This document shows, piece after piece, positions 18,413 to 39,194 of a stretch of 64,000 bases of DNA. Both the position numbers and the translations under genes were made by a program. Location of the stretch: positions 62,001-126,000 of the forward strand of contig JAQGJK010000012.1 in the NCBI GenBank assembly GCA_028290665.1, read 5' to 3'. Source of the DNA: Devosia sp. GTDB lineage: Bacteria; Pseudomonadota; Alphaproteobacteria; Rhizobiales; Devosiaceae. Each line of letters begins with the position of its first letter. The stretch's first letter is position 1. Below the pieces are notes generated by a model that worked only from the letters and a program-made list of their open reading frames with translations, searched no databases and was not told where the DNA came from.

Positions 18413-19783
18413 ATGACCATCGCCATGGGTAACGATTCGACGACCGCCGGGATCGAGGACGCGATCAACACCAATTCGCGGCCGAGCGACCTCCGGATCA
18501 CCGACATCAGGGTTGCCGAGATCGTCGGGGCGCCGTTCGTTTCCGCGCTGATCAAGGTATACACCAACCAGGGCATCGTCGGTTTGGGCGAAGTGCGGGA
18601 CGGGGCCAGCGCAACCTTTGCGCTGATGCTCAAGAGCCGGCTGCTTGGCGAAAATCCCTGCGATGTCGACCGGCTGTTCCGGCGCATCAAGCAGTTCGGC
18701 GGCCATGGGCGGCAGGGCGGCGGCGTGTCTGGGCTCGAGATCGCGCTGTGGGACCTCGCCGGCAAGGCTTATGGCGTGCCGATCTATCAGATGCTCGGCG
18801 GCAAATTCCGCGACAAGGTGCGGATCTATTGCGACACCGACGCGGAGAAGCCGAGCGGCACCGAGACCGGCAAGCGGCTCAAAGAGCGCATGGACCGCGG
18901 CTTCACTTTCCTCAAGATGGACCTCGGGCTGATGCAGATCGTCGATATGCCGGGCGCTGTCGTGGCGCCGGCCGGTTCGCTCGAAGGCTATCGCGTGCAT
19001 CCGAGCCGCGGCTCGATCAAGACGGTCGAAGACCGGCGCGCCCGCAACGCCGTCTATGACATTCACAATGTCCGCCACCCATTCAGCGGGCTGCATTTCA
19101 CCGACAAGGGCCTCGACCTGCTGGAGCAATATATCTCCGAGGTTCGCGACGTCATCGGCTACGAGATTCCGCTGGCCATCGATCATGTCGGCCACATCTC
19201 GCTGCAGAACGGCATCAGGCTGGCCCGGCGGATCGAGAAATACGTGCCGGCCTGGCTCGAGGACGTGATCCCCTGGCAGTATGCCGACCAGTATCGCCAG
19301 CTGCAGGAAGCGACGACGGTGCCGATCTGCACCGGCGAAGACATCTACCTCAAGGAGGGGTTCGAGCCGCTGCTCAAATCCGGCATCTCGATCATCCATC
19401 CGGATCTGCTGACCTCGGGCGGCATCCTCGAAACCAAGAAAATCGGCGACGCCGCGCAGGAACACGGCATCGCCATGGCCATCCACATGGCCGAAAGCCC
19501 AATCGCCGCCATGGCCGCGGCGCATGTCGCGGTAGCGACGGAAAACTTCATGGCGCTGGAATATCACAGCGCCGATGTGACCTGGTGGGACGACATCGTG
19601 ACCGGGCTGCCAAAGCCGCTGGTCAAGGACGGGTTCATCACCATGACGGACAAGCCGGGCCTCGGCATCGACGACGTGGTCGACGAGGTGATCAGCCAGC
19701 ACCTGCAGGAGGGCGTCACCGGCATCTGGCAATCGACCGAGCAGTGGGACGACGAATATTCCTGGGACCGCACCTGGAGCTGA
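18413..19783 (+). CDS. Mandelate racemase/muconate lactonizing enzyme family protein
   Basis: [31 protein letters not shown]...[32 protein letters not shown]...GEDIYL; RBS agggagg upstream of 18413. Confidence 0.88.
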
Positions 19784-19841
19784 CGCGCCAGCGCTGCGCG
19801 ACGTGTAACTTTACCCGCCGGACCCGGGGCCGGCCGACTCT

Positions 19842-21053
19842 TTGAAGGCAAAAAAGATGAAAATCACCGACCTCCGCTGTGCCATCATCGGCCGGCATCC
19901 CATCGTTCGCATCGTCACCGATGAAGGGCTCTATGGCCTCGGCGAAGTGGAATACACCAAGCCGTACCTCAAGCCCTGGGTGCTGCATTTTCGCGATGCG
20001 CTGATCGGCGAGGACCCGACCGATGTCGAGCGGGTGATGCTGAAAATTCGTCAGCGCGGCAGCTTCAAGCCCTACGGGGCGGCGGTCAGCGCCATCGAGC
20101 ACGCGCTATGGGATATCGCTGGCAAGGCGGCGAATGTGCCGGTGTACAAGCTGCTCGGCGGCAAGGTGCGCGACAAGGTGCGGGTGTATAACGGCTCGGT
20201 GCGCCAGAAGCGCGCCGGCGACCGGCCCGAGGATTTTGCCGCCGACGTCAAATGGATGGCCGACCAGCCCCAGAACTTCTTCATGGTCAAGCAGGGCATC
20301 AGCTTCCATTCGAGCATGAAATCGAGTCAGCCCGATTTCCACTACGGCGTGCAGCAGCCGCCGACCTATCACGGCGCCATGGACCAGGGGCAGATCAGCG
20401 AGCACGGCTTCAACTACATGCTCGACTGCGTCATCGCGATGAAGGAAGCGCTCGGCGATAAGGTGTCGCTGGCGCTCGATTGCGGCCCGGGCTGGTTCCT
20501 CAACGACGCCATCAAGTTCGCCCGCGCCGTCGAAAAATACAATCTGATGTGGCTCGAGGACATGCTGACCGGCGACTACGTGCCGTGGGTCAATCCGCAG
20601 GCTTACCGCGAACTCACCACCTCGACGACGACGCCGATCCATACCGGCGAGCAGATCTACCTCCGCCACAACTTCAAGGAACTGATCGAAACCCAGGCGG
20701 TGCGGGTCATCGGTCCCGATCCTGCGGATATCGGCGGCATCGCCGAACTCAAATGGGTCGCCGAGCATGCCTACATGCACTCGATCATGATGGCCCCGCA
20801 CGGCACCGCCAACGGGCTGCTTGGGCTTGGGGCGCTGATCAACGTCTGCGCGACGCTGCCGGCCAACTACATCGCCTTCGAATATCCGAGCGCGTCTGAC
20901 CCGTGGTGGACCGATATCGTCATCGGGCTGCCGGAAACGATCGTGACGGATTCGCATGTCGACCTGCTCGAAGCCCCGGGCCTCGGGCTCGACATCGACG
21001 CCGAGGGCGCGAAAAAATACCTCAAGGAAGAGGATGCGGGCTTCTTCGACTGA
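19842..21053 (+). CDS. Mandelate racemase/muconate lactonizing enzyme family protein
   Basis: MKITDLRCAIIGRHPIVRIVTDEGLYGLGEV...HALWDIAGKAANVPVYKLLGGKVRDKVR...GEQIYL...MMAPHGTANG. Confidence 0.88.
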   Translation: MKAKKMKITDLRCAIIGRHPIVRIVTDEGLYGLGEVEYTKPYLKPWVLHFRDALIGEDPTDVERVMLKIRQRGSFKPYGAAVSAIEHALWDIAGKAANVPVYKLLGGKVRDKVRVYNGSVRQKRAGDRPEDFAADVKWMADQPQNFFMVKQGISFHSSMKSSQPDFHYGVQQPPTYHGAMDQGQISEHGFNYMLDCVIAMKEALGDKVSLALDCGPGWFLNDAIKFARAVEKYNLMWLEDMLTGDYVPWVNPQAYRELTTSTTTPIHTGEQIYLRHNFKELIETQAVRVIGPDPADIGGIAELKWVAEHAYMHSIMMAPHGTANGLLGLGALINVCATLPANYIAFEYPSASDPWWTDIVIGLPETIVTDSHVDLLEAPGLGLDIDAEGAKKYLKEEDAGFFD

Positions 21054-21072
21054 GGCCTGCTGCTAAATTAGT

Positions 21073-21095
21073 GGGGCGCGGTCTGGCCGCGCCCC
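21073..21095. terminator. GC-rich hairpin between convergent genes
   Basis: GGGGCGCGG-tctgg-CCGCGCCCC 9-bp perfect stem between the ends of the 19842..21053(+) and 21120..22211(-) genes; no clear U-tract. Confidence 0.5.
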
Positions 21096-21119
21096 ATGAT
21101 CTCACATCGACTTCGTGCC

Positions 21120-22211
21120 CTACCCCAGGCGGGGCACATCGAGCCAGACGCCGCCTTGCCGGGCGGATTCGTGGGCAATGATGCCGGGGATGGTGAAGTC
21201 GGAGGCGCGGACGGCGCCGATCGGCGATTTGGTGCCGCCGTCCAGCGCCGTGACGAAATCGCGGACCAGATAATATTCCGAGGTACCGTGGCCACCGGTC
21301 CTGGCTTCGGCGGGCGACTCGGGATCGACGGTGTCGCACAGCAGCGATTGCGCGCCCGGATCGGTCGGCATGGTGCGGTTGGAAAAGAACAGCCCGTCCG
21401 AGGCGTTGCCGTAACCGGCAGTGCGACCGTTCTCGATGAAGCCATTGGTACCATGGAGGCAATACCACACCAGATCAGGCCAGCGCGGCGCCACCTGGCT
21501 GCGCAGGATCTTGATGACCCGACCCTTTTCGGTCTGGAACAACGCCACTTCCATATCGAGAAAGCCCTCGCCCTCCTCATCGGGAAACCGCTTCTTGCCA
21601 GATGAAACGCCGGTGGCGCGGACGACGCGATCGTCCATCAGGGTCAGCAACGGGCCGAGCGTGTGAGCGCAATAGTGGATCGGCGGGCGGGTGTACCGCC
21701 ACTGCCGCTTGCCGGTGACCGGGTCGATCAGCCGGTCGACGATGTCGTGGAGATATTCGGCCTCGGCATAGAACACGTCGCCGATCTCGCCAGCATCGAT
21801 GCGCCGCTTCCACTCGGTGATGTAGTGAAAATAGGTGTAGTTCTCGGCCATCATGTAGAGCTTGCCCGAGCGCTTCTCGGCCGCGACGATGGCCTCGCAA
21901 TCGGCGACGGTATAGGCCTGCGTCTGCTCGCACAGCACATGCTTGCCGGCATCAAGAGCCGAGATGGTTTGCGCGGCGTGCTGCTCGATGGGGGTGGCGA
22001 TGGTGATGACATCGACGTCGCTGGCGACCAGATCGTCATAAGACAGGAAGCGGCGTGCTTCGGGGACGCCGAAATCGGCGCCGATGTCGTGGAGCACCTT
22101 CGGATCGATGTCGCAGACAGCACTGATTTCGAGCCGGGGGTGCGTTGCGAGTGCATTGACCAGCCCGTGGCCGCGCTGCAAACCGACAATACCGACTTTG
22201 TGTTTTTCCAT
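21120..22211 (-). CDS. Gfo/Idh/MocA family oxidoreductase
   Basis: VGIVGLQRGHGLVNALATHPRLEISAVCDID...DVDVITIATPIEQHAAQTISALDAGKHVLCEQTQAYTVADCEAIV. Confidence 0.9.
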   Translation of the reverse strand: MEKHKVGIVGLQRGHGLVNALATHPRLEISAVCDIDPKVLHDIGADFGVPEARRFLSYDDLVASDVDVITIATPIEQHAAQTISALDAGKHVLCEQTQAYTVADCEAIVAAEKRSGKLYMMAENYTYFHYITEWKRRIDAGEIGDVFYAEAEYLHDIVDRLIDPVTGKRQWRYTRPPIHYCAHTLGPLLTLMDDRVVRATGVSSGKKRFPDEEGEGFLDMEVALFQTEKGRVIKILRSQVAPRWPDLVWYCLHGTNGFIENGRTAGYGNASDGLFFSNRTMPTDPGAQSLLCDTVDPESPAEARTGGHGTSEYYLVRDFVTALDGGTKSPIGAVRASDFTIPGIIAHESARQGGVWLDVPRLG

Positions 22212-22293
22212 TTTTCTGCCTTTCAGCGGAGTGTTGAAGCGCCGTCACGAAACTGTGGCGATGGCGAGGAATGAATAAGCGAGACGGATTCTG

Positions 22294-23124
22294 TTACTGC
22301 AGGGCGCCTTGCAGCACGCCGCGTACCAACTGCCGCTGGAACACCAGATAGAAGGCGATGATCGGCACCGAGACGATCAGCGCCGCCGCCGAGAGACCGA
22401 CGACATCGGTGAGCCGCTGGCCCGAAAAGGCCGCGAGGCTGAGCGGGGCGGTCTGCAGGCGCGGGCTGTTGGCGAGCATCACCAGCGGCAGCAGGAAATC
22501 ATTCCATGACCACATGAATACCAGCACCGCGAGGGTGAGCAGCGCGGGGCGCACCAGCGGCAACAGGATCGAGCGGAAAATCTCCACACTGCCAGCGCCG
22601 TCGAGCCGGGCGGCCTCGGTCATTTCCGAGGGGATGGCGGCGAAGGCAGTGCGCATCCAGAACACGCCGAAGGCGAGGAACTTGCCGATCTGGGGCAAGG
22701 CGATGGTGCCGTAATTGCCGCGGAGGAATGGGAAGAACTCCCGGATATCGTAGTAGAGCGGCACGATCATCGCCTCCCCCGGCACCACGAGGCCGATGAG
22801 GAACAGGACGAAGATGACGTTCTTGCCGCGGAAGCGCAGCACCGCGAAGGCGTAGCCGGCGAGCGCCGACAGCACCGTGGTGCCGACAACCACGATCAGC
22901 GCGATGGCAGCGCTGTTCCACAGCGTCTGGCCGAATTTGCCCTTTGCCCAGGCGCGGTAGAAATTCTCGAGCGTCCACAGGGATGGGATTTCGATGCCCG
23001 ATATCGGCCGGCCCGAACCGTTGAAGGCGGCGAAGGCGAGTCCGAGGATGGGGAGCACAGCCAGCACTGACAGGGTGATGAGGATCAGGTGCGAGACCAG
23101 CTTTTCGGTGGTCGAGGTCTGCAT
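22294..23124 (-). CDS. Carbohydrate ABC transporter permease (MalG-like)
   Basis: EAARLDGAGSVEIFRSILLPLVRPALLTLAVLVFMWSWNDFLLPLVML. Confidence 0.93.
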   Translation of the reverse strand: MQTSTTEKLVSHLILITLSVLAVLPILGLAFAAFNGSGRPISGIEIPSLWTLENFYRAWAKGKFGQTLWNSAAIALIVVVGTTVLSALAGYAFAVLRFRGKNVIFVLFLIGLVVPGEAMIVPLYYDIREFFPFLRGNYGTIALPQIGKFLAFGVFWMRTAFAAIPSEMTEAARLDGAGSVEIFRSILLPLVRPALLTLAVLVFMWSWNDFLLPLVMLANSPRLQTAPLSLAAFSGQRLTDVVGLSAAALIVSVPIIAFYLVFQRQLVRGVLQGALQ

Positions 23125-24068
23125 CAGCTCTCCCTCCGCTCGCGGGTGACGCGGCCAAGCAGCACAACCAGCGCCAGAACGATGGCGGCGATCACTGTAC
23201 CGACCGCGGCGGCCGAGCCGGCATCGGCATAGGCGAAGGCCCGGCGGTAGACTTCGAGCGCCGGCACGGTGGTCGAGGTGCCGGGGCCGCCCCGCGTCGT
23301 CGTATAGATGAGGTCGAAGCTGGATATCGCGGCGATGGTGGCGAGCATCACGGCGAGCACCAGTTCCTGGCGCAGGCCGGGGAGCGTCACCGAGAAGAAC
23401 TCCTGCACCGGCCCTGCCCCGTCGAGCCGTGCGGCTTCATACAGCGATGGCGAAATCTTCTGCACCCCGGCGATGAACATCAGCATGAACAGCCCGTAGA
23501 GTTGCCAGGCCCCGACCAGTCCGAGTGCGATCAGCGCCGTATCGAAATCGGCGAGCCAGGAGCGGGTAAGGAACCCGAGGCCCAACCGATCGAGCAGGGA
23601 GTTGAGCAGCCCCTCGGGAGCCAGAATCCAGCGCCAGGAGATGCCGACGACGACAGTCGGCACCACCTGGGGGAGGAACAGCAGGGTGCGATAAAGCCCC
23701 GAGGCGCCAAGCGCGCTGCGCGAGATCGCGGCAACCACGAGGAGGGCCAACCCGATGGCGACGCCGGCGTAGAGCAGGATCAGGACCGCGCTGTGGAGGA
23801 ATGCGCCGGCCAATTGAGCATTGGTGACGATCTCGAGGTAATTATCGAGACCGATGAACTTCTGTTCGCTGACGCCATCCCATTCGAACAGCGACAGCCA
23901 GATGGTGTGGAGCAGCGGCAGCAGCACGAACAGGCCATATGCGAACAATGCCGGCGCGAGGAACAGGGAGGAAACGAGCGTCTCGTTGCCTCCCGCTCCG
24001 GACCCGGTCGCTACATCGGCCCGGGCACGGGGGAGACCGAGCGGGGCAAGGCGGGTGGCGGCGCGCAT
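23124..24068 (-). CDS. Carbohydrate ABC transporter permease (MalF-like)
   Basis: EAARLDGAGPVQEFFSVTLPGLRQELVLAVMLATIAAISSFDLIYTTTRGGPGTSTTV. Confidence 0.93.
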   Translation of the reverse strand: MRAATRLAPLGLPRARADVATGSGAGGNETLVSSLFLAPALFAYGLFVLLPLLHTIWLSLFEWDGVSEQKFIGLDNYLEIVTNAQLAGAFLHSAVLILLYAGVAIGLALLVVAAISRSALGASGLYRTLLFLPQVVPTVVVGISWRWILAPEGLLNSLLDRLGLGFLTRSWLADFDTALIALGLVGAWQLYGLFMLMFIAGVQKISPSLYEAARLDGAGPVQEFFSVTLPGLRQELVLAVMLATIAAISSFDLIYTTTRGGPGTSTTVPALEVYRRAFAYADAGSAAAVGTVIAAIVLALVVLLGRVTRERRES

Positions 24069-24101
24069 GATTGTGGTGTTCCCCGATGGCGCCGCCGCCG
24101 C

Positions 24102-25433
24102 TTACTGCTTGTAGGCCGCTTCGACCGTGTCAGCGAACTGCTCGGGAGTGACCCGACCGGCCATCAGTTCCTGGATCGCGGCGAAGAACTTATCGCCAAA
24201 GCCCGACACCGCCACGTCCTCGAACGGCACGGTGCCGTCCTCGGCGAGCAGGATGTCTTTCGCGGCCAGAATGTCCTTGACCACTGGCGAAGCGGTGTCG
24301 GGCAGCTTGGCCGAGCCGGCGGGCAAATCGTCGAACTGGGCGAGCACCGTCGCCGATTCCGGTGAGACGAGGTGGTTGAGATAAGCCGCCGCGACATCGG
24401 GCTGCGGGCAGCTGGCGCTGATATGGAGGGGCTTCGATACGCCGCCGGTGGCGACGTGGGTATTGCCGGCCTTGGGCGGAATGGCCATGAAGCCAACATT
24501 GTCGCCCATCGCTTCGGCAACGAAGCTGGCGCTCCAATTGCCGTCGATCAGGAACACTCCATCTCCATTGACGAACTGCGCCGCCGCGTCGTCATTGCTG
24601 ATGCCGTCATAGCCGGGGGTGATGTAGCCGGCATTTACCAGATCCTGCAATTCCTTTGCCGCCTGGATATTCTCGGGCGTAACGAAGGTAGCGCCTTCCG
24701 CACCGAACACGAAATCGCGGACGGCCTGGGCACTGACGATCTGGTTTTGCACCATCTCGTAGATGAACGAGCCGGGATACTGGTTGGCGTTGCCAAAGCC
24801 AAGGCCGACTTCGCCAGCGGCCTTCGCGGCTTCGAACACGGCGAGCAGTTCTTCCCAGGTGGTCGGGACTTCGAGCCCGAGGGCGGCCAGCTTTTCGCGG
24901 TTATAATACAGGCCGATCATCTGGTACCACGGCGAGACGCTGTAGGTTTCGCCCGCGCCCCAGATGGCGCCGCCTTCGGACCATTGCGAGGTCGGGTCGA
25001 TGGCCCAGCCATATGCCTCGGCATAATCGCCGAGCGGGCGGACCAGACCGGCGCTGATCAGGACGCCATCGGTGTCGCGACCCTGATCGGCCATGACGAT
25101 ACACGGCGCATCGGGCTCGGAGAGCACGAGGCGGACGCTGGCGATCAACTCCTCATAGGATTTCTCGATCCGCTCGATGGTGATGTTCGGATATTTCTCG
25201 GTGAACGCCGCATCGAGGGCGTCAAGCGCCGCGAGCCGCGTATCCGGCTCGTTGATATAGATCGTCAGGGTGAAATCGCCGGCGGCGGTCACCGCTGCGT
25301 CGCCGGTGGCAATGGCATCCTGGCCAAAGCTTGCCAACGGGGCGAGCGCGGTGGAGCCAACAAGAGCAGCAAGAAGCGCGGTGCGCAGCGGCCGCCTGAT
25401 CTGCGAGTGCATGTAAACCAACTTGATCCCCAT
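24102..25433 (-). CDS. ABC transporter extracellular solute-binding protein; start may be 25412
   Basis: Signal-like N-terminus; family 1 SBP pattern (GVSKPLHISASCPQPDVAAAYLNHLVSPESATV); next to permeases. Confidence 0.88.
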   Translation of the reverse strand: MGIKLVYMHSQIRRPLRTALLAALVGSTALAPLASFGQDAIATGDAAVTAAGDFTLTIYINEPDTRLAALDALDAAFTEKYPNITIERIEKSYEELIASVRLVLSEPDAPCIVMADQGRDTDGVLISAGLVRPLGDYAEAYGWAIDPTSQWSEGGAIWGAGETYSVSPWYQMIGLYYNREKLAALGLEVPTTWEELLAVFEAAKAAGEVGLGFGNANQYPGSFIYEMVQNQIVSAQAVRDFVFGAEGATFVTPENIQAAKELQDLVNAGYITPGYDGISNDDAAAQFVNGDGVFLIDGNWSASFVAEAMGDNVGFMAIPPKAGNTHVATGGVSKPLHISASCPQPDVAAAYLNHLVSPESATVLAQFDDLPAGSAKLPDTASPVVKDILAAKDILLAEDGTVPFEDVAVSGFGDKFFAAIQELMAGRVTPEQFADTVEAAYKQ

Positions 25434-26863: not shown

Positions 26864-28525
26864 TCAGCCCAGCCGGATATGCGGGATGGCTTTCTTCTCG
26901 ATCTCGTCGAGCGAGTCTGCGTAGCCGGCATCGGCATAGCGCATGACGCCGAGCGAGGTGTCGTTGGTCAGCGAAAGGTTCAGCCGCTCATCAGCGGCCG
27001 CCGTGCCATCGGCAACGAGGGTGACGCCGGCCGAGGTCATGTAGCCGGCATAGCCGCCGCCGCCCGAATGGATGACGACGAGATCGGCCTGCGATGAACA
27101 CAGCAGCATGGCGTCGAGCAACGGCCAGTCGGCGATCGCATCCGAACCGTCGGCCATGTTCTCGGTCATGATGTTGGGATGCGCCATGGCGCCGGCGTCG
27201 AGGTGGTCGCGGCTGAACGCCACGGGGCCGGCGAGTTCGCCGTTGCGCACCATATCGTTGACCTTGAGCGCCAGCGCGGTGCGTTCGCCGTGACCGAGCC
27301 AGGCGATCCGCGCCGGCAGGCCCTCGAACGGGACGTATTGCTTGGCGAGTTTGATCCAGTTGGTGACGATGGCGTTGTCGGGGAACATCTCCAGCACAGC
27401 GTCGTCGATCCGGCCGATATCGGCGGGCTCGCCCGAGAGCGCCATCCAGCGGAACGGGCCGATGGCCCGCGCGAACAGCGGGCGGAGATAGGCGGCGGTA
27501 AAAATTGGAATATCGAACGCCGTGTCGACGCCGCCATCCCGCGCCTGCGTGCGGATAAGGTTGCCATTGTCGAACACTTCGGCGCCGGCCGCCTGGAAGG
27601 CCAGCATGGCGCGGACGTGGTCGACGATCGAGGCGCGGCTCGCGGCCATCAACTGCCCCTGCCCGTCGACGCGCAGGCGTTTGACCTCGGCGAGGCTCAT
27701 GCCCTTGGGGATATAGCCATGGACGAGGTCGTGCGCGCTGGTCTGGTCGGTGACGATATCGGGCACGATGCCGCGCCGGACGATTTCGGGGTAAATCTCG
27801 GCAGCGTTGCCGACGAGGCCGATAGAGGTGGCGCGTTTTTCGCGCACCGCAGCATCGATCATGGCGAGAGCGGCGTCGAGGTCGGGGGCGATGGCTTCGA
27901 GGTAGCCGATTTCCTGCCGTTTCCGCGCCCGCTCGGCATCGACATCGATGCAGAGGATCGCCGCGCCCGCCATGCGACCGGCCAGCGGCTGCGCGCCACC
28001 CATGCCGCCGAGCCCGGCAGTCAGGATGAAGCGGCCGGCGAGCGAGCCACCAAAGCGCCGCTCGGCGATGCGCATGAAAATCTCGTAGGTGCCCTGGATG
28101 ACGCCCTGGCTGCCGATATATTGCCAGGCCCCCGCCGTCAGCCCGCCCCAGCAGATCAGGCCCTTTTTCTCGAGTTCGTAGAAAATCTTGGCCTTGGCCC
28201 ATTGGCCGACGATGTTGCAATTAGCCATGATGACCAGCGGCGCCTTGTCATGCGTCTTCAGCAGCCCGATCGGCTTGCCCGACTGGATGATGAGCGTCTG
28301 GTCCTCGTCCATGGTCTTGAGTGCGTTGACGATCGCCGCATGCGCCTGCCAGTTGCGAGCCGCCTTCCCGAGCGCCGCATAGACGATCAGCTGATCCGGG
28401 TTTTCACCGACGGCAAGGACGTTCTCCAGCAGCCGCAGCAACGCCTCCTGCCGCCAGCCCTTGGCCCTGAGTTCGGGCCCACCGGGGATCGGGAAGTTGG
28501 GATGGCGCGGGTTGGGGGTTGGCAT
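26864..28525 (-). CDS. Urocanase-family hydratase; predicted thiourocanate hydratase (not canonical HutU)
   Basis: 553 aa with urocanase fold signatures (LTAGAWQYIGSQGVIQGTYEIF, GRFILTAGLGGMGGAQPLAGRMAGA, DIVTDQTSAHD), but ICWVGLG is replaced by IAWLGHG and HHGGGVGxG by HSGGGGYAG; sits with hydantoinase/carbamoylase genes. Confidence 0.8.
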   Translation of the reverse strand: MPTPNPRHPNFPIPGGPELRAKGWRQEALLRLLENVLAVGENPDQLIVYAALGKAARNWQAHAAIVNALKTMDEDQTLIIQSGKPIGLLKTHDKAPLVIMANCNIVGQWAKAKIFYELEKKGLICWGGLTAGAWQYIGSQGVIQGTYEIFMRIAERRFGGSLAGRFILTAGLGGMGGAQPLAGRMAGAAILCIDVDAERARKRQEIGYLEAIAPDLDAALAMIDAAVREKRATSIGLVGNAAEIYPEIVRRGIVPDIVTDQTSAHDLVHGYIPKGMSLAEVKRLRVDGQGQLMAASRASIVDHVRAMLAFQAAGAEVFDNGNLIRTQARDGGVDTAFDIPIFTAAYLRPLFARAIGPFRWMALSGEPADIGRIDDAVLEMFPDNAIVTNWIKLAKQYVPFEGLPARIAWLGHGERTALALKVNDMVRNGELAGPVAFSRDHLDAGAMAHPNIMTENMADGSDAIADWPLLDAMLLCSSQADLVVIHSGGGGYAGYMTSAGVTLVADGTAAADERLNLSLTNDTSLGVMRYADAGYADSLDEIEKKAIPHIRLG

Positions 28526-28682: not shown

Positions 28683-29780
28683 TCACGTCCCGCCGTCGAG
28701 GGCGTAGCGGGCGATTTCGATGCCCATGGCCTTCTCGACCGAGGGATACACTGACGGATCGAGCACGCTCGACGCCAGGGGGATGACGGTCTTGCTGACG
28801 TGGAGGACGTGGAGCGTCATGCCGATTTCGATCTGGCCGACGCTGAGCGGCAGGCCTTCGGGGTCGAGCGTGGTGATGACGTCCGGGAAGGTGGCGAGGC
28901 GAGTGCCGCCGGCATCGTCGACGGCCATGAATTCGTTCATGACGTGGAGGGTCATCGCCCGGTCGCCCGTGCCAATGGTGATGGTGCCGATGTCGAAGGC
29001 TTCCTTGGTATAGACCACGGCCTTGGCCGTCACCTTGCCACTGGCGAGGATGCTGCCGCCGGTGGCTTTGGCGATGGCGTCGATTACCGCCGCGCCGCCC
29101 TGCTTCTCCGCCGCGATAATGGCTTCGCCAAGAGTCAGCGCCAGCGTGATGCCACCCAGTGCAGCGTTCTTTTTCACATAGGACGCGCGCAGCGGATTGC
29201 GGCAGGAGGCGATAAAACCTCCGGACTGGTCGGCGGCAGTGCGCAGGATCGGCGACACCTTGGCCGTGGCGCCGCGGACCACCAGTTCGATGTAACGATT
29301 GTCGGCCCGATTGCCGCCGACCGCCGTCTGAATCATCGGTTCTGGCGAGCCGGCCATGCCGATCGAGCCCATGTCGCCGGTCGGGTGGGCGCGGACGTCG
29401 CCGACGGCATCGAGCACCTTCATGCCGAGCATGGCGGCGGGGAGCCAGCCATTGAGCGTCGAGGATTTGCCGTTCTGGCCGACCATCAGCGCCGCGACCG
29501 TTTCGCCCAGCGCCTCCAGCAGCAATTGCACCGCCTTGATGTAGTCGATGCCCTGCATTTCCCACGGCGTGGTCGAAGCTGGGGCGCCGATGGCGGCAGC
29601 GGTCGCGACCCAATCGTTGGGGTCGAGTTCATCGACCGAGACCAATTCAGGCTTGCCGACCCCGACCGCAGCATAGCCGAGCATGCGCCCATGATCGGCC
29701 CAGCCGCCGCCGCCGGAGGCATAGACGGAGCCGCCCTTGACCGCCGGTTCGACGTCCTTGTCGGTGAGGATGCGTCCCAT
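28683..29780 (-). CDS. DUF917 family protein; candidate thiohydantoin desulfurase of the ergothioneine cluster
   Basis: GGSVYASGGGGWADHGRMLGY...GIDYIKAVQLLLEALGETVAALMVGQNGKSSTLNGWLPAAMLGMKVLDAVGDVRAHPTGDMGSIG; DUF917 pattern. The function is inferred from cluster context. Confidence 0.75.
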   Translation of the reverse strand: MGRILTDKDVEPAVKGGSVYASGGGGWADHGRMLGYAAVGVGKPELVSVDELDPNDWVATAAAIGAPASTTPWEMQGIDYIKAVQLLLEALGETVAALMVGQNGKSSTLNGWLPAAMLGMKVLDAVGDVRAHPTGDMGSIGMAGSPEPMIQTAVGGNRADNRYIELVVRGATAKVSPILRTAADQSGGFIASCRNPLRASYVKKNAALGGITLALTLGEAIIAAEKQGGAAVIDAIAKATGGSILASGKVTAKAVVYTKEAFDIGTITIGTGDRAMTLHVMNEFMAVDDAGGTRLATFPDVITTLDPEGLPLSVGQIEIGMTLHVLHVSKTVIPLASSVLDPSVYPSVEKAMGIEIARYALDGGT

Positions 29781-29790
29781 TTGTATAATC

Positions 29791-31032
29791 CTAAAGTGTC
29801 TGGTCGAGCCGTAGCACGGCTTGCAGCAGAACCGCTGCACCGAGCGCAATGTCCTCGGTTTCGGCGAATTCCTCGGGCGCATGGCTGCGACCACCGCGGC
29901 AGGGTATGAAGATCATGCCTGCCTTGGTGATCCGCGCCATCCAGGCGGTATCGTGCCCGGCGCCCGAAGCCATGCGGCGATATTTCGCGCCGACGCTGTC
30001 GCAGGCGGCGTCGAGGCAGGATTGGACATCGACATCGCAGGGCGTCGGTGGATTGTCCGAGATCAGTTTCGGCGGACTGATCGTGGCGTCGGTTTCGGCA
30101 GCCACCCAGTTGACGCTTTCGCCGATGAGTTCGATGAAGCGTTCCATGTCGGCGCGATTTTCGGCGCGGGCATCGATCAGCAGCCGCACCCGGCTCGGCA
30201 CGACGTTCGCGGCATTCGGCTCCATAGTGAACTCGCCGACGGTGGCGGCGAAGTGCGCCGCCCCTTGCGCAAATTCCCGACCGAGATGCTCGATGTCGAG
30301 CACCAGCCGCGCGGCAGCGGTCAGTGCATCGATGCGCGTCGCCATCGGGGTGGTGCCGGCATGATCGGCGCGGCCTTCGACGATGATCTCGATCCGGGTG
30401 ATCCCGGCGATGGCGGTGACCACGCCGATGTCGAAGTCCCCGGTTTCGAGCACCGGTCCCTGCTCGATGTGAAGTTCGAGGAATGCCTTGATATCGGTCC
30501 GGATGCTGGCGACATCCGGATGGCCGCCGGCCTCGGTGATCCCCTCGTAGAGCGTCATCCCATTGGCTTCGCGCGTCAGCCACTCGTCCGGGCGCTGGCC
30601 GATCAGGCCGCGGCTGCCGATGCAGGAGACGCAGAAGATCGAAACTTCCTCCGCGAGGAAATCGACGATTTCGAGATCGTGGGCGAGTTCGATGTTCTGG
30701 TCCTTCAGCGCCCGGGCGACTTCAAGGGCGGCGGAGATACCGGCGATGCCGTCAAAGCGTCCGCCATCCGGTACGGTATCGGAATGGGAGCCGAGCATGA
30801 TGGTGCCACGCCCTGCCCCGGTCCCCGACCGCAAACCGATCAAATTGCCAGAAACGTCGACGCGCGTCGTCAGTCCCGCGGCGGCAAAGCGATTGGTCAG
30901 CCACTCACGGCCCTTGAGGAACATCGGCGAAAACGCCCGCCGGGTCCATGGCCGGTCGGGCTCGGTGATCGCGGCGAGGGCGTCGATATCCTCGGCGATC
31001 CGATCGGCGTCGACCTGCAGGTTGGAAATCAA
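29791..31032 (-). CDS. Zn-dependent N-carbamoyl-amino acid amidohydrolase (allantoate amidohydrolase family); predicted N-carbamoyl-glutamate hydrolase
   Basis: LGSHSDTVPDGGRFDGIAG, DFLAEEVSIFCVSCIGSRGLIG, LELHIEQGPVLE, ASGAGHDTAWMA motifs; probable TTG start overlapping the upstream stop. Confidence 0.85.
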   Translation of the reverse strand: MISNLQVDADRIAEDIDALAAITEPDRPWTRRAFSPMFLKGREWLTNRFAAAGLTTRVDVSGNLIGLRSGTGAGRGTIMLGSHSDTVPDGGRFDGIAGISAALEVARALKDQNIELAHDLEIVDFLAEEVSIFCVSCIGSRGLIGQRPDEWLTREANGMTLYEGITEAGGHPDVASIRTDIKAFLELHIEQGPVLETGDFDIGVVTAIAGITRIEIIVEGRADHAGTTPMATRIDALTAAARLVLDIEHLGREFAQGAAHFAATVGEFTMEPNAANVVPSRVRLLIDARAENRADMERFIELIGESVNWVAAETDATISPPKLISDNPPTPCDVDVQSCLDAACDSVGAKYRRMASGAGHDTAWMARITKAGMIFIPCRGGRSHAPEEFAETEDIALGAAVLLQAVLRLDQTL

Positions 31033-32390
31033 CGGCGCGGCTCCGGGCGAACGAAATTGCCGGAGCCGGGTTCGGCCAGCACCGTCGTGCCGTCGAACAC
31101 CTGCCGGCCCCGCAGCCAGGTGCCGCTGACGGTCCACGGCAGTTCGATGCCGTTATAGGGCGACCAGCCGACGACGTTGTTGCCGCTTGCCGCCGCGTCA
31201 TAAATCTTCGCGCGCGGTTCGAGGACGACGATATCGGCATCCTTGCCAACTTCGAGCGCACCCTTGCGATGGTCGAGGCGGAAATGTTTCGCGGGGTTTT
31301 GGCTCATCAGCCTTGCGGCCCAGGTCAGCGGGACGCCGCGCTCCAGCGCGCCTTTGACGAACAGCGGCACCATGACTTCGAGGCCCGGCACACCTGAGGC
31401 ATTTTTCAGCATCTCGGGATCGGTCTTGCGGTTTTCGGACCAGCTGACATGGTCGGTCGACACCAGCGTGACATTGCCGGCGGCGACTTGCTCCCAGAGC
31501 TTTTCGACTTCGGCGCGCGGGCGGATCGGCGGGTTGATCTTGGCCTTGCCACCGAGGCGGCGGACGTCGGTTTCCTCGTCGAGGACCAGATAGTGGATGC
31601 AGCACTCGATGGTCGCGGCAAAGCCCTGGTCGCGATAGCTCCGCGCGATGTCGTAGCCGCGGCCGAGCGAGCAATGCACCACATGTGCCGGGCAGCCAGT
31701 GGCAACGCCGGTTTCATAGATCTGCAAGGTCGCGAGGAGTTCGGTCAGCGGCGGCCGGCTCATCGCATGGGCGCGCCAGTCGGTGATGCCAGCGGCCTTG
31801 ACCGCCTCGATCGCGGCGCGGACATATTCATCGTCCTCGTTGTGGACCCCGGCGGTCAGGCCGGTCGGCGCGATGGCGGCAAAGCACGCTTCGAGCAGTG
31901 CCGGCGGGATGCGCGGGAAGCGGATCGGGTCGGTGCCGAAGGTCGAAAACTTGAAGGCGGCGACGCCGGCTTCGACCATCTCGGGAATGCGGCTGGCGCC
32001 CTCCTCCGGGTTTACCGTGCCATACAGCGCGAAATCGACGCGGGTTTCGGCTCCGGCATCACGGATTTTGATCCGCACGGCCTCGGCGGAATTGACGACG
32101 TTGCCCTCGTCATAGGGCATGTCGACGATGGTGGTGACGCCCCCGGCGGCGGCAGATTTCGTCGACCAGGCAAAGCCTTCCTGATTCTTCTGGCTCAGCG
32201 AATGCACCTGCGCGTCGATGGCGCCGGGCAGGATCAGCGCCGGCCCCAGATCATGGCGCTCGGCACCGGCCGGGGCGACGCCTGCACCCACAAGCGCAAT
32301 CTTGCCGCCGCTTACTGCCACATAGCCGTTCTCGATGACGCGGTCGGGCAGGACGACGGTGCCGGCGAGGACGAGATCGAAATCAGCCAT
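31029..32390 (-). CDS. Dihydropyrimidinase/allantoinase-type amidohydrolase; predicted hydantoin-5-propionate amidohydrolase
   Basis: LPGAIDAQVHSLSQ...AAAGGVTTIVDMPYDEG...HVVHCSLGRGYDIARSYRDQG...LVSTDHVSW...MSQNPAKHFRLDHRKGALEVGKDADIVVLEP. Confidence 0.85.
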   Translation of the reverse strand: MADFDLVLAGTVVLPDRVIENGYVAVSGGKIALVGAGVAPAGAERHDLGPALILPGAIDAQVHSLSQKNQEGFAWSTKSAAAGGVTTIVDMPYDEGNVVNSAEAVRIKIRDAGAETRVDFALYGTVNPEEGASRIPEMVEAGVAAFKFSTFGTDPIRFPRIPPALLEACFAAIAPTGLTAGVHNEDDEYVRAAIEAVKAAGITDWRAHAMSRPPLTELLATLQIYETGVATGCPAHVVHCSLGRGYDIARSYRDQGFAATIECCIHYLVLDEETDVRRLGGKAKINPPIRPRAEVEKLWEQVAAGNVTLVSTDHVSWSENRKTDPEMLKNASGVPGLEVMVPLFVKGALERGVPLTWAARLMSQNPAKHFRLDHRKGALEVGKDADIVVLEPRAKIYDAAASGNNVVGWSPYNGIELPWTVSGTWLRGRQVFDGTTVLAEPGSGNFVRPEPRR

Positions 32391-32402: not shown

Positions 32403-33155
32403 TCATGCCGTTGCACGCTGGGCGAGGCCGCTGCGGGCGACCAGAAATTTCTCGATACCGGCAATGCCGTCATGCACCAGCACCGCCAGCACCCCGACGA
32501 TCAGGCCGCCCTGCAGCACGAAGGCGGTGTTGTTGGTAGTGAGGCCGGCGATGATGATTTCCCCGAGCGTCCGCGCCGCGACCGTCGAGCCGATGGTGGC
32601 GGTCGAAAGCGAGATCACCGTCGCGACCCGGATCCCGGCGAGGATGATCGGGAACGCCAGCGGCAATTCCACCTGCACCAGCCGCTGCCAGCCGGTCATC
32701 CCCATGCCGCGCGCCGCATCGGTGACGCTCGGCGGCAGGTTGGTCAGGCCGGTCAGCGAGTTCTCAAAAATCGGCAGCAGGCCGTAAAGGAACAGCGCGA
32801 CCAGCGTCGGCGCCGTGCCAAAACCGAGCACCGGCACGGCCAACGCCAGAACGGCGACGGGCGGGAAGGTCTGCCCGACATTTGCGAGGCTGCGCGACAG
32901 CGACAGGAACTCGGCGCCGAACGGCCGGGTGACGATGATGGCGAGGCCTACCGCGACGATGGTCGAGGCGATGGTCGCCAAGGCGGTGATCATCAGATGG
33001 TTGAGCGTCAGTTCCAGCAGGCTGGTCTGCAGGTAGATCGGCGGCGCGTCGAAGCGGGTCAACGGCTCGAACAGGAAAGCGAAGCTCTCGGGGGTGATGA
33101 GGAACGCCAGCAGCACCAGCAGCACGACAAGGCGGACGATGGTGCCAGTGGTCAT
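32403..33155 (-). CDS. Quaternary-amine/betaine-type ABC transporter permease (OpuC/YehW-like)
   Basis: GQTFPPVAVLALAVPVLGFGTAPTLVALFLYGLLPIFENSLTGLTNLPPSVTDAARGMGMTGWQRLVQVELPLAFPIILAGIR. Confidence 0.9.
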   Translation of the reverse strand: MTTGTIVRLVVLLVLLAFLITPESFAFLFEPLTRFDAPPIYLQTSLLELTLNHLMITALATIASTIVAVGLAIIVTRPFGAEFLSLSRSLANVGQTFPPVAVLALAVPVLGFGTAPTLVALFLYGLLPIFENSLTGLTNLPPSVTDAARGMGMTGWQRLVQVELPLAFPIILAGIRVATVISLSTATIGSTVAARTLGEIIIAGLTTNNTAFVLQGGLIVGVLAVLVHDGIAGIEKFLVARSGLAQRATA

Positions 33156-34099
33156 GCCACTGCATCCACCGGGCGGGCGGCGAGGCGCGACAGGGCAGCA
33201 AGCGTCACCCGGCCGATCGGCTTGCCGTCCTGCACCACCGGCAGGGCGTCGCGGCCCGACCACAGGCATTCGGCATAGGCATCGCGGAGCGAGATGTGGC
33301 AATCGACCGGCGCGCCGGGGGCTTCGCCCGGTTCGACGGCGGTCAGCACGATATCGAGCGACAGCAACCGAAACGGCCGGTCGCCGGTGCCGATCAACTG
33401 ATCGACGAAATCGGTCGCCGGACGCGCGATGATCTGGGCGGGGGCGGCGTATTGGAGCAATTGCCCCTGATCCATAACCGCGATCTTGCTCCCGAGGTGG
33501 ATGGCCTCCTCCATGTCGTGGGTCACCAGCACGATGGTGGTGCCGAACCGTTTCTGAATGGCGATGAGGTCGTCCTGCGCCTTGGCGCGGATGATCGGAT
33601 CGAGCGCCCCGAACGGCTCATCCATCAGCAGGATCTGCGGCTCGGCGGCAAGCGCCCGGGCAACGCCGACGCGCTGCTGCTGGCCACCCGATAGCTCCGA
33701 CGGCAGCCGGTCGCGATACTGGGCCGGATCGAGCTGGAACAGGCTCAGCAGTTCATCGACGCGGGCCGCGACACGCGGCCCGTCCCAGCCGAGCAGTTTT
33801 GGCACCGTGGCGATGTTTTGACCGACGGTGCGGTGGGGGAAAAGCCCGTGGCCCTGGATGGCGTAGCCGATCTGGCGGCGCAGTTCGTGGGCGACGAATT
33901 CGCGCGTGTCCTTGCCGTCGATCCGCACGGAGCCCGAGGTCGGCTCGACAAGGCGATTGATCATCCGCAGCAGCGTCGTCTTGCCCGAACCGGAGGTGCC
34001 GACGATGACGCATATGTCACCCTCATCGATCGTCATCGACACATCATCGACGACCGTCAGGTCATTGTAGGTCTTAGTCAGGCCGTCGATTTCGATCAT
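33152..34099 (-). CDS. Betaine-type ABC transporter ATP-binding protein (OpuCA/YehX-like)
   Basis: GTSGSGKTTLLRMINRLVEPTSG, LSGGQQQRVGVARALAAEP, DEPFGALDPIIRAKAQDDL; C-terminal CBS-like tail. Confidence 0.92.
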   Translation of the reverse strand: MIEIDGLTKTYNDLTVVDDVSMTIDEGDICVIVGTSGSGKTTLLRMINRLVEPTSGSVRIDGKDTREFVAHELRRQIGYAIQGHGLFPHRTVGQNIATVPKLLGWDGPRVAARVDELLSLFQLDPAQYRDRLPSELSGGQQQRVGVARALAAEPQILLMDEPFGALDPIIRAKAQDDLIAIQKRFGTTIVLVTHDMEEAIHLGSKIAVMDQGQLLQYAAPAQIIARPATDFVDQLIGTGDRPFRLLSLDIVLTAVEPGEAPGAPVDCHISLRDAYAECLWSGRDALPVVQDGKPIGRVTLAALSRLAARPVDAVA

Positions 34100-35295
34100 G
34101 CGCGGCTTCCCCTGCGGGCCGAGACCAGTTCGACCGCGGCATCAAGCACGACGGCGGCGACGAACGACAGCGCCACCGTCGGCACGGCGCCGAGCAGCAC
34201 CAGATCCATCGCCGTCTGCCCGATCCCCTGGAACACAAACACCCCGAAACCACCGCCACCGATCAGCGCGGCAATAGTGGCGAGGCCGATGTTTTGCACC
34301 AGCACGATCCGGATGCCGGTGAGGATCACCGGAAACGCCAGCGGCAGTTCGACGGCATACAGCACCTGCCGCTCGGTCATCCCCATGCCCTTGGCCGCAT
34401 CCTTGACGGCAAATTGCACGCCGACCAGCCCGATTACCGTGTTGGCGACGATGGGCAGCAGCGAATAGCCAAACAGGGCGACGATGGCCGGGGCAAAGCC
34501 GATACCGGAAATCCCGATTTCGGAGGCGCCTGGAATGGTCGCGGCGATCCACGCCAGCGGCGCGATCAGCAGCCCGAACAGGGCAATCGAGGGGATGGTC
34601 TGGACGATGTTGAGGACATTGAGAATGGTCGCCCGGACCCCGACGCGCTGGTAGCACAGCACGCCGAGCGGCACGCCGATAATGGTCGCGGCGATGAGCG
34701 AGCCGAAAGCCAGCGAGACATGGGTCCGGGCCTCGCGCCAGAACGCCTCGGCGCGGTTGGAGTATTCCTTGAGGATCGACAAATCGTCCCAGACACCGCT
34801 CCAGAGGATCAGCGCGACTGCCGCGATCACGGCCAGCAGCACCCCGACGCGCGGGAGTGGCCCGAGGCGCAGCCGGATCAGCGCATCCGCGGCGACGAGG
34901 GCAAAGGCGAATAGCAGCACCCACATCCCGGCCCCGGGCGAGACGCGCGCGAAAGTATCGCCGACGGGGGTCAGGAACGTCGCCGAACGCCCGACGAAAA
35001 TGGCGAGTGCCGCAACGACGACGAGGCTCACAAGCAGGCGCAACAGGCTCTTGGAGCGCAGCAACGCCACAACGGTGCCCGCACCGATCAGCAGATACAA
35101 TAGTGCCGCTTCAAGCAGCGGCAGTGACTGCCCGATCATCAGCCCCTCGCCCACGACGATGCGATTGGGACGGACGATGACGAACGGCAGGACGATGCCG
35201 ACGATGGCCAGCAGCAGGATAATTACGCCGAGCTTGTCCGCTTTGGGGACTGCAAAGGCGGCACGTCGGTTGGGGCTGATGGCGTCGGTCGACAT
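34096..35295 (-). CDS. Betaine-type ABC transporter permease with N-terminal extension (YehY-like)
   Basis: NIVQTIPSIALFGLLIAPLAWIA...ALFGYSLLPIVANTVIGLVGVQFAVKDAAKGMGMTERQVLYAVELPLAFPVILTGIRI; 399 aa with extra N-terminal TM segments. Confidence 0.9.
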   Translation of the reverse strand: MSTDAISPNRRAAFAVPKADKLGVIILLLAIVGIVLPFVIVRPNRIVVGEGLMIGQSLPLLEAALLYLLIGAGTVVALLRSKSLLRLLVSLVVVAALAIFVGRSATFLTPVGDTFARVSPGAGMWVLLFAFALVAADALIRLRLGPLPRVGVLLAVIAAVALILWSGVWDDLSILKEYSNRAEAFWREARTHVSLAFGSLIAATIIGVPLGVLCYQRVGVRATILNVLNIVQTIPSIALFGLLIAPLAWIAATIPGASEIGISGIGFAPAIVALFGYSLLPIVANTVIGLVGVQFAVKDAAKGMGMTERQVLYAVELPLAFPVILTGIRIVLVQNIGLATIAALIGGGGFGVFVFQGIGQTAMDLVLLGAVPTVALSFVAAVVLDAAVELVSARRGSRA

Positions 35296-35337: not shown

Positions 35338-36249
35338 TTAGTTGAGGAAGCCGTTGGTGGTCAGCCAGTCGGTTGCGACGGCTGAGGCCGTTTCGCCGCC
35401 GACCTGGATGCGGCCATTGAGCGTCTGCAGGGTGACGAGGTCGAGCTTCTCGAACACCGGCTTCAGCAGATCGGCGATCTGCGGGTATTCATTCAGCACG
35501 GCCTCACGGATGATCGGCGCGGGCTCGTAGACGGGCTGCACGCCCTTGTCGTCTTCGAGCACGACGAGACCGGCGGGGGCAATACCGCCATCGGTGCCAT
35601 AGACCATGGCGGCGTTGGCGCCGCTGGTCTGCTGGGCCGCGGCGGCGATGGTCGCGGCGGTGTCACCACCCGACAGCACGATCAGCTGATCGGGCGACAG
35701 GGTGAAGCCATAGGTTTCCTGGAACGCCGGCAGGGCGCTGGCCGAGCTGACGAATTCGGAGGAGGCGACGAGCTTGATGTCGCCGCCGCCGGCTACGTAT
35801 TTGCCAAAATCGGAGAAGGTAACGATGTTGTTCGACGTCGCGATATCGGAGCGCAGCGCCACGGCCCAAGTGTTATTGGCGGGCGCCGGGGTCAGCCAGA
35901 CGATCTTGGCATTATCGTAGTCGAGTTTCTTCGCCATTTCATAAGCCGTCGCGGCGGTCTTCCACGCCGGATCGTCGGCGAGATTGTAGAAGAAGCCGGC
36001 GTTGGAGGTGTACTCCGGGTAGATGTCGATTTCGCCGGCAGCGATGGCGGCGCGGACGATCGGGGTAGCGCCAAGCTGGATCTTGTCGGTGACCGGGATG
36101 TCGTTGGCCTGCAGCACCTGCAGGATGATGTTGCCGAGCAGCCCGCCTTCGGTGTCGATCTTGGACGAGACGACGACCTGCGCCTGCGCTGCCGTCGCCA
36201 TCAAAGCGAGGCCGGCTACCGCGCCGAGCAGCTTTTTGACTAGTTGCAT
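35338..36249 (-). CDS. OsmF/YehZ-like (OpuAC-type) substrate-binding protein; predicted ergothioneine/betaine binder
   Basis: Signal MQLVKKLLGAVAGLALMATAAQA; VVVSSKIDTEGGLLGNIILQVLQANDIPVTDKIQLGATPIVRAAIAAGEIDIYPEYTSNAGFF. Confidence 0.88.
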   Translation of the reverse strand: MQLVKKLLGAVAGLALMATAAQAQVVVSSKIDTEGGLLGNIILQVLQANDIPVTDKIQLGATPIVRAAIAAGEIDIYPEYTSNAGFFYNLADDPAWKTAATAYEMAKKLDYDNAKIVWLTPAPANNTWAVALRSDIATSNNIVTFSDFGKYVAGGGDIKLVASSEFVSSASALPAFQETYGFTLSPDQLIVLSGGDTAATIAAAAQQTSGANAAMVYGTDGGIAPAGLVVLEDDKGVQPVYEPAPIIREAVLNEYPQIADLLKPVFEKLDLVTLQTLNGRIQVGGETASAVATDWLTTNGFLN

Positions 36250-36487
36250 GATGCACTCCTGTTGAGCCCCGGCTTGGTCGCCGCGGCGTGTTATGATCGT
36301 CACCCTAACCCGGCAGGACCGCGAAGGAACCGTCCGGGCAGCGAAAATTGATCCAAGACTTCGGGCGCCGCGACAATAATCGAGCGCAGAGGCTGGTTTC
36401 GACGTATCTTAGGGCGGCAAGCGCTTGAAGTTCAACATGTCTCTCGCTTGGCTGGCCCCTGCATGGACGTCGTGCGCCAGCAGTCGA

Positions 36488-38029
36488 TCAGCGCGTCGGC
36501 CCGAGCGCAAAGAAGGCGTCGACTTCGTCGAGCGTCGACAGGCCAAGCAGTTCGGCAAGCAGCTCCTGGGACTCCAGCGCGGCCTCGATCGCCTCGATAT
36601 CCATCGAGAGCGGGCGGTCGATCCGGTAGAACGGCGATACCCGGCGAACGAGCTGGTAGATCAAGCCGGGCACGTTGTCCGGCTTGTCGCCCGAGATATC
36701 CATCGCCTGTGCGGCTAGCAGCGCCTCGATCGCGGCCATGCGGCGCAATGCCTGCACTTGCCGCTCGAACCGCTCGACCACCAGCGGCAGGAACGCCGCT
36801 TCGTCTTCGAGCCCATCGGCGACGACCAGTGCCTGCGGCGAGATCGGGTTGGTGAGCGACAGCACCCGCACGAACAGGTCGCCGGACAGCTTGATCAGCG
36901 GCCCGAACCCGGTGGCGATGGCACCGGGAGCCACGAGATTGACCGGCAGGCCACGCCGCCCGCCATTGCCGAGCAGCACGCAGCGATTAAACGAATTGCG
37001 CGCCACATGGGCGAGGCCCAGTTGCGCCGCCTGCAGGAACACCGTGACATCGAGCGGCAGCGAACCGCCGGAGGTCAGCACCTGCCCGCCCGCCACTACC
37101 GGATTATCGTCGGTCCGCCCGGTGGCGGCGAGAATGGTACTCGCGGCGATGGTCAGGCTCTCGATGGCCGTCGCAAAGACCTGGCTCATCATGCGCAGCG
37201 ACAATGGATCCTGCACGTTGGTCGCATCGGGCCAGTCCCAGCCCTTGGCGTTGAAGTACAGCCAGGCGCCGATCGCCGCCTCGCGCTTGGTGCCGACATG
37301 GGCGACGGCTTTCCACGGATCGCGCGAGGCGCCGAGCGCGCCAGCGGTGGTGAGCCCGGTGGCGAGCAGCACCCGAATGGCATGAGCCGCCTCGCGGACC
37401 GCATTGGCCGCAGCGGCGAAGGCGACCGAGTTGGTCGACACCGCCGCCAGACTGTCCCGCGCCGCCAGCCGGACTGGATGCAGCCCGGCTTCGGCAAGCG
37501 CTTCGCTGGCCGACAGGCGGCGGCCATTGTGCATAGCCTCACCAACGCCGGTCAGGACGGCGCCGATCTGGCCCATCAGCCCGATATCGGCGCAGCCGAT
37601 CGAACCGGTGCGCCGCACGACGGGAACCACGTCCTTCGCGAGCAGTGCCAAAAACGCCTCGACCAGCGCCACGGTGCACCCGACCCGCCCAGTCAGTGCC
37701 ATGTTGGTGCGGATGGCGATGGCCGAGCGAATGACTTCGTTGGGGAACGGCTCGCCGGTGCCGAAATGGTGGGCACGGACCAGACCCATATTGAAAGTCT
37801 CGAGTTCCTCAGGCGTCCACGACACGTCTTTCATCGCGCCGACACCGGTGTTCGAGCCATAGACCGGCTGGCCCGACGCGATCGCCTCCTCGACCACTTC
37901 GCGCGCCGCCTGCACCCGTACCAGCGCTGCGGCATCGGCGAAAATCGGCGTGGCCTTACGCGCCACCCGGGTGAGGGTGGCAAAGCTCAGCGCAGTCCCA
38001 TCGAGGACCACGGGATCGATGGAAATCAT
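36488..38029 (-). CDS. Aromatic amino acid ammonia-lyase family protein lacking the MIO triad; predicted ergothionase (trimethylamine lyase)
   Basis: 513 aa HAL/PAL fold (YGSNTGVGAMKD, LVRAHHFGTGEP, VPVVRRTGSIGCADIGLMGQIG, GRTDDNPVV), but canonical GS(V/I)GASGDL is GSIGCADIGL. Confidence 0.82.
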   Translation of the reverse strand: MISIDPVVLDGTALSFATLTRVARKATPIFADAAALVRVQAAREVVEEAIASGQPVYGSNTGVGAMKDVSWTPEELETFNMGLVRAHHFGTGEPFPNEVIRSAIAIRTNMALTGRVGCTVALVEAFLALLAKDVVPVVRRTGSIGCADIGLMGQIGAVLTGVGEAMHNGRRLSASEALAEAGLHPVRLAARDSLAAVSTNSVAFAAAANAVREAAHAIRVLLATGLTTAGALGASRDPWKAVAHVGTKREAAIGAWLYFNAKGWDWPDATNVQDPLSLRMMSQVFATAIESLTIAASTILAATGRTDDNPVVAGGQVLTSGGSLPLDVTVFLQAAQLGLAHVARNSFNRCVLLGNGGRRGLPVNLVAPGAIATGFGPLIKLSGDLFVRVLSLTNPISPQALVVADGLEDEAAFLPLVVERFERQVQALRRMAAIEALLAAQAMDISGDKPDNVPGLIYQLVRRVSPFYRIDRPLSMDIEAIEAALESQELLAELLGLSTLDEVDAFFALGPTR

Positions 38030-38099: not shown

Positions 38100-39194
38100 T
38101 TACTTCTGTCGCGGTCGGCTTAGCGTCGCCCCGGGGGATACCCAGTTGCCGGCGCGCTTGGCCTTGACCGCCTCGGCGAGCGTCGCCGCAGCATTGCGCA
38201 CTTCGCCATGCATTGGAATATCCTTGTCGAAGGCATCGTGACTGGTCGCATACGGCTCCCAATAACCGATGTAGCGATCGACTTCAGCCTTGTTTCCAGC
38301 TGCCTCGAGGCCCATGAACCGCAGCCAGTCGGCAATCGAGCGCCGGACGTTTTCGGTGCCCTCGACATCGCCGTGAACGACGACGGAGAACTGTCGTCCG
38401 GCAAGATGCTGGGGATATTGCCAACCGCCAAGCTCCATCTCCTTGGCGCCTTGCACATCCTTTTTGCCCTCGGTCGAGGTCGGATCGACATTGCCGCCAT
38501 CGGCACAAACGAGGCGATCCATCAGGGCCTTGAGCGGCGAGGTCACCTGGTACCAGTTCACCGGCGAAACGATCATCACCCCGTCGGCGGCAGCGAACAT
38601 CGGGTAGATGTCGTTCATCCAGTCCTGGGTTTGCCCGAGCGAATAGTTCGGATAACAGGAGCACGGATAGTGGCAGAGCGGCGCGGCGGTGGAAAAGCAG
38701 GTCTTGCATGGCAGGATGTTCCGTCCGTACTCCGATGAGGTGCGGGACAGGTCGAGAAACTCGACGGCGATGCCGGCGCCTTCCAGCACCTCCTCGGCCA
38801 TCTTGGCCATACGAAAGCTTTTCGAGGTTTCGCCCGGGCAAGTATGCTCGCTGCGCGATGCCGCGTTGATCATCAGCACCCGGGCCTGCCGATACGGGTC
38901 TTTGTAGCGTTGCTCGGCAGCGACGATGGCGGCGCGCGCCGAAATCCAGTCGATGGAGAGATCATAGTCCGGATCGGCATAGCCGGGGCCGGCCTTCTGG
39001 GTGATCGGAGACTTACGGGATTCGATGTAGGCATCCCACGCGGTATCAGCGACGCGGTCGAGTTCGGATTTGAGCTGTTCGAACGCCGGATCGATGTACT
39101 GGCTGAGGAACCGCTTCTTGAACTCGGCCTCGTCGAGCTTGACCGGGGGCATTTCCTTACGCGGTTCGGTGGCCTCGGCCAGCACAGCACTCAT
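38100..39194 (-). CDS. Flavodoxin-fold NAD(P)H-dependent FMN oxidoreductase
   Basis: QARVLMINAASRSEHTCPGETSKSFRMAKMAEEVLEGAGIAVEFLDLSR...ILPCKTCFSTAAPLCHYPCSCYPNY...DGVMIVSPVNWYQVTSPLKALMDRL. Confidence 0.82.
   Translation of the reverse strand: MSAVLAEATEPRKEMPPVKLDEAEFKKRFLSQYIDPAFEQLKSELDRVADTAWDAYIESRKSPITQKAGPGYADPDYDLSIDWISARAAIVAAEQRYKDPYRQARVLMINAASRSEHTCPGETSKSFRMAKMAEEVLEGAGIAVEFLDLSRTSSEYGRNILPCKTCFSTAAPLCHYPCSCYPNYSLGQTQDWMNDIYPMFAAADGVMIVSPVNWYQVTSPLKALMDRLVCADGGNVDPTSTEGKKDVQGAKEMELGGWQYPQHLAGRQFSVVVHGDVEGTENVRRSIADWLRFMGLEAAGNKAEVDRYIGYWEPYATSHDAFDKDIPMHGEVRNAAATLAEAVKAKRAGNWVSPGATLSRPRQK

Follow-up and report, generated by a model that had tools for sequence, protein, structure and literature searches.

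The lyase gene lies on the minus strand at 36488..38029 of the window, by which we mean the whole 64-kb stretch of Devosia DNA that was analysed. Its open reading frame is intact over 513 codons, and the 513-residue product has a single full match to PF00221 (Pfam Lyase_aromatic, 288 bits) covering nearly its whole length. We predict that this protein, which lacks the MIO electrophile, is an ergothioneine trimethylamine-lyase (ergothionase). Tightly packed or overlapping genes follow 3′ of the lyase on the same strand, beginning with an ABC transporter composed of an OsmF-type betaine substrate-binding protein (35338..36303; PF04069; NF049931, score 484 over a cut-off of 400), a ProW-like permease (34096..35295; PF00528), a ProV-like ATPase (33152..34099; PF00005; TIGR01186, 276 bits, below the cut-off of 327) and a second permease (32403..33302; PF00528). 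Synteny also entered into the assignment of the binding protein and both permeases. Next in order are genes for ErtD, a hydantoin-5-propionate amidohydrolase (31029..32390; NF058538, 783 over 600); ErtE, an N-carbamoyl-L-glutamate amidohydrolase (29791..31137, with the start probably further in; NF058540, 592 over 520); a thiohydantoin desulfurase of the DUF917 type (28683..29894; NF058529, 590 over 440); and a thiourocanate hydratase of the urocanase family (26864..28525; NF058530, 1037 over 930). Searched against the PDB, the hydratase matches 7ned best (798 bits); we take this entry to be a thiourocanate hydratase. A promoter scan gave no signal above chance. Directly upstream of the lyase is an FMN-reductase/flavodoxin-like gene (38100..39194, minus strand; PF03358), whose membership of the pathway is not supported, as it has no match in 34 related loci; it is perhaps co-transcribed with the lyase here, outside the operon core. 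Elsewhere in the window, positions 13954-25433 resemble a region for sugar-acid catabolism with no connection to the lyase operon; it has genes for sugar ABC transport, two dehydratase-like genes of the enolase superfamily, an oxidoreductase gene and regulators of the GntR, IclR and LacI types.

At the site where MIO forms in ammonia-lyases, the minus strand from 37609 to 37574 reads ACC GGT TCG ATC GGC TGC GCC GAT ATC GGG CTG ATG. These are exactly the twelve codons quoted in the original prediction, although the interval given with them, 37583-37606, spans only GSIGCADI, and the full set occupies 37574-37609. The codons for C146, A147 and D148 were correctly placed at 37586..37594 (minus strand, with C146 at the 37594 end). 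The prediction had read the change as ASG becoming CAD, and here alignment leads to a different description: the motif is GSIG-CA-DI in the Devosia lyase, SSIG-EG-DI in the Treponema denticola ergothionase and GSVG-ASG-DL in Pseudomonas putida HutH. D148 falls on the conserved Asp just after ASG, and the change is a one-residue deletion in which the three residues A-S-G are reduced to the two residues C-A. This alignment had been proposed as a check, and it finds the same one-residue deletion in the ergothionase. The ASG triad is absent, and the claim that MIO cannot form stands. All 34 homologues from other genomes (mostly Devosia, plus Pelagibacterium and an Azospirillaceae bin) share the shortened motif, with C-A at 26 loci and T-A at 8, which argues that it is neither an error nor the product of chance; in remoter homologues (39-70% identity) the two residues are C-A or C-G. 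Sequencing error, named at the outset as what could overturn the prediction, is ruled out, as is a frameshift at the motif, since the motif is kept in 34 other genomes.

The genes around the lyase bear on its substrate. Ergothionase lacks MIO, and its products are trimethylamine and thiourocanic acid (PMC13405746). The four downstream enzymes exceed NCBIfam equivalog cut-offs for ergothioneine use, and in this the Devosia hydratase, desulfurase, ErtD and ErtE resemble the bacterial ergothioneine catabolic pathway that those models describe; for the lyase step, no NCBIfam equivalog gave a match. The operon context calls for an enzyme that forms thiourocanate from a betaine brought in by the importer and, combined with a lyase of the ergothionase type, this points to ergothioneine, an antioxidant that contains sulfur, as the substrate. 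The operon differs from the described pathway in also carrying the OsmF-type ABC importer. Its binding protein shares a betaine-type ABC substrate-binding domain with EgtUC of the EgtU-type ergothioneine importer (9egi; match 4.7e-22), but it belongs to a separate OsmF type that is far nearer to 4nd9/5teu (1.9e-138). The transporter probably imports ergothioneine, with the OsmF-type protein as a likely component of the importer.

A lyase without MIO could in principle take any histidine betaine, and lyases with the deletion have other neighbors elsewhere, namely hut genes with a betaine transporter or, in rhizobia, ornithine-cyclodeaminase-like genes. The enzyme might therefore be a trimethylamine-lyase whose natural substrate is S-methyl-ergothioneine, ergothioneine sulfonate or hercynine. 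We consider this unlikely, since the hydratase and desulfurase encoded alongside score above cut-off with the models for unmethylated thio compounds and below it with the S-methyl ones (NF058531, 739 against 880; NF058532, 290 against 450). An S-methyl-ergothioneine pathway was rejected on these scores, and in a hercynine pathway the desulfurase and the hydantoin enzymes would be superfluous. These arguments bear on S-methyl-ergothioneine and hercynine, not on ergothioneine sulfonate.

Comparison with characterised proteins also places the lyase nearer to ergothionase, which favors ergothioneine trimethylamine-lyase activity. In a phmmer search of the PDB the best match was the T. denticola ergothionase 6s7j (178 bits, 2.3e-51), against 142 bits and 2.2e-40 for HutH, although overall identity to ergothionase, at 28%, is no higher than the 28% to HutH. 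Both Leu276 (37202..37204, minus strand), which replaces the catalytic Tyr280 of HutH and is Leu in ergothionase too, and Lys380 (36890..36892, minus strand) are among ten positions that the lyase has in common with ergothionase and that differ from three ASG-bearing lyases. The position of Lys380 is Lys in the T. denticola enzyme and in all deletion lyases that group with it, and it is Val, Thr or Cys in ASG-bearing lyases. Tyr57, His87, Lys380 and Glu408 align with identical residues in 6s7j. The two enzymes (PDB 6s7j and 6s7q for ergothionase) share the PF00221 fold, the deletion at the MIO site, the Leu in place of HutH Tyr280 and, in the C-terminal part, a Lys and a Glu; they differ in their low identity, in E-G where the Devosia lyase has C-A, and in the loop at positions 322-326, which is unlike both ergothionase and HutH. 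Among the 46 lyases compared, the deletion, the Leu and the Lys always occur together, apart from four very divergent paralogues at locus L101 that have a shorter motif and neither Leu nor Lys. Modelling of the protein, another check suggested with the original prediction, recovered the family fold (pLDDT 73) but did not tell the two enzymes apart, with TM about 0.8 to both.

The same fold, and the retention of the HutH active-site residues Tyr57, His87, Asn200, Arg279 and Glu408, would also suit a divergent ammonia-lyase for histidine or aromatic amino acids, one that does without MIO or makes its electrophile from other residues, and the homologue on a related plasmid is in fact annotated as an aromatic amino acid ammonia-lyase. 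For the Devosia protein this is very improbable. Compared with P. putida HutH (1gkj), with which it shares the fold and several active-site residues, its ASG is shortened, the catalytic Tyr280 has become Leu and Lys380 has been gained. The genome has a separate ASG-bearing PF00221 lyase on contig C17, and the operon contains sulfur-specific enzymes. The HutH model TIGR01225 gives 218 bits against a cut-off of 539, which together with the absent ASG rules out classical HutH and agrees with the earlier statement that the protein is no classical histidine ammonia-lyase.

A tree of the lyases is consistent with the ergothionase assignment. Those with the deletion, the Lys and the Leu share one side of a branch with ergothionase, supported at 94/92, rising to 100/99 after the divergent L101 set is taken out. 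Long branches are present, and a tree grouping the Devosia lyase clade with ASG lyases was not rejected by an AU test (p 0.18). From these sequences it is likely that the deletion-signature lyases descend from a single ancestor without MIO.

The association between the lyase and its partner genes is conserved. Within the 10 kb of DNA fetched per locus, 25 of the 34 loci contain the full run, lyase through hydratase, and most of the others are interrupted by contig ends; one locus not cut in this way (L012) has the lyase and transporter only, and another (L009) has no transporter. The lyase occurs with the same enzyme set in other alphaproteobacterial families, at lyase identities down to 39%, and on megaplasmids of Ochrobactrum, Rhizobium and Shinella. 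Of 399 genomes sampled from the phylum, six have a thiourocanate hydratase above cut-off, and five of these have a lyase of this clade; none of the remaining 393 genomes does (Fisher p 7e-11, from genomes that are not independent of each other). No thiohydantoin desulfurase was found in 369 genomes from the class of genome G663, another class of the same phylum, and for this reason no Burkholderia-type locus enters the comparison. EgtD, of ergothioneine biosynthesis, was not found in the Devosia genome, whose assembly is 61% complete. That the lyase is catalytically dead, as a decaying or structural paralogue that has lost its defining cofactor triad, is scarcely credible given an intact open reading frame, strong conservation of the motif and the active-site residues in 35 genomes and a fixed position in the operon.

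We propose, with a probability of about 0.86, that the lyase is an ergothionase and catalyses the opening step of an operon-encoded route by which ergothioneine is taken up and broken down to glutamate. This reading draws on the best PDB match, the shared Lys380 and Leu276, the placement on the MIO-less side of the tree and the operon enzymes above their cut-offs. The same evidence from sequence and context favors the suggestion in the original prediction that the enzyme removes trimethylamine from ergothioneine. HutH needs an electrophile to expel ammonia, and the trimethylammonium group of ergothioneine is already a good leaving group. Because this quaternary ammonium leaves readily by itself, the Devosia lyase would need no electrophile for activation and could eliminate trimethylamine from ergothioneine independently of MIO, yielding thiourocanate. 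The conservation of Tyr57, Lys380 and Glu408 suggests that they are the likely acid/base and substrate-activating residues. Thiourocanate would then be hydrated and desulfurised with release of sulfide to give hydantoin-5-propionate, which ErtD and ErtE would open to N-carbamoylglutamate and then glutamate. Overall, the predicted five-step route would convert ergothioneine to trimethylamine, sulfide, ammonia, carbon dioxide and glutamate.

Ergothionase and its pathway are already known in kind, and the Devosia lyase is a further case, one that is easily mislabelled as an aromatic ammonia-lyase. A 2026 survey reported that ergothionase has been definitively identified in few genera only, found that its BLAST search returned ammonia-lyases only and advised caution on divergent homologues (PMC13405746). 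Genes of this sort are catalogued under histidine or aromatic ammonia-lyases, and ergothioneine breakdown is under-counted as a result. The signature described here, one residue short at ASG with Lys380 and Leu276, tells ergothionase from ammonia-lyase in a single alignment. It extends predicted ergothioneine catabolism, with a candidate importer, to Devosia, Pelagibacterium and other Alphaproteobacteria, and this bears on the release of trimethylamine from ergothioneine in soils. Our literature search found no paper linking Devosia with ergothioneine. More tentatively, the deletion, Lys380 and Leu276 might define a large branch of lyases that release trimethylamine from betaines, in which ergothionase is one of several, the rhizobial pairs and a hut-side lyase described below acting on other substrates, and the OsmF-type importer might at the same time be a dedicated class of ergothioneine transporter distinct from EgtU; we hold this combined proposal to be possible, if somewhat doubtful.

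Related lyase loci show several other arrangements. On contig C17 of the same genome (L149:6846-11170), the ASG-bearing lyase comes right after ErtD-like (730 over 600) and ErtE-like (537 over 520) genes in a cluster that also holds a LysR-like gene and an ABC transporter of the dipeptide type. The association of lyase, ErtD and ErtE is seen again in L171, L172 and L173, and clusters of this type are possibly an ammonia-lyase route for histidine or thiohistidine into the same pathway. At L097:8090-12606, an ASG-bearing HutH-like lyase stands where one without MIO would be expected, directly before a thiohydantoin desulfurase and a thiourocanate hydratase that each exceed their NCBIfam cut-off. 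L106:7590-11812 contains ErtD, the desulfurase, thiourocanate hydratase and an amino-acid-type ABC transporter, with no recognisable lyase or ErtE nearby. The four very divergent PF00221 paralogues of L101 (13082-19000) are in tandem, have motifs such as GPGEI and GSGEI with no ASG and no Lys380, and neighbor an S-methyl thiourocanate hydratase (891 over 880) and an S-methyl-type desulfurase (409, below 450).

At L147:9510-18428, a lyase without MIO (GSLGAADL, with the Lys and Leu signature) lies among hut-type genes (urocanase and imidazolonepropionase-like) together with a betaine ABC transporter and is a candidate trimethylamine-lyase for hercynine; another HutH-like protein at this locus has GSVGYLTHM, likewise with ASG absent. 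In one rhizobial genus (L140, L142 and relatives), each genome has two different lyases without MIO, one with GSIGAGDL and one with GSIGAADL. Both are remote from ergothioneine genes, and one of the two adjoins an ornithine-cyclodeaminase-like gene.
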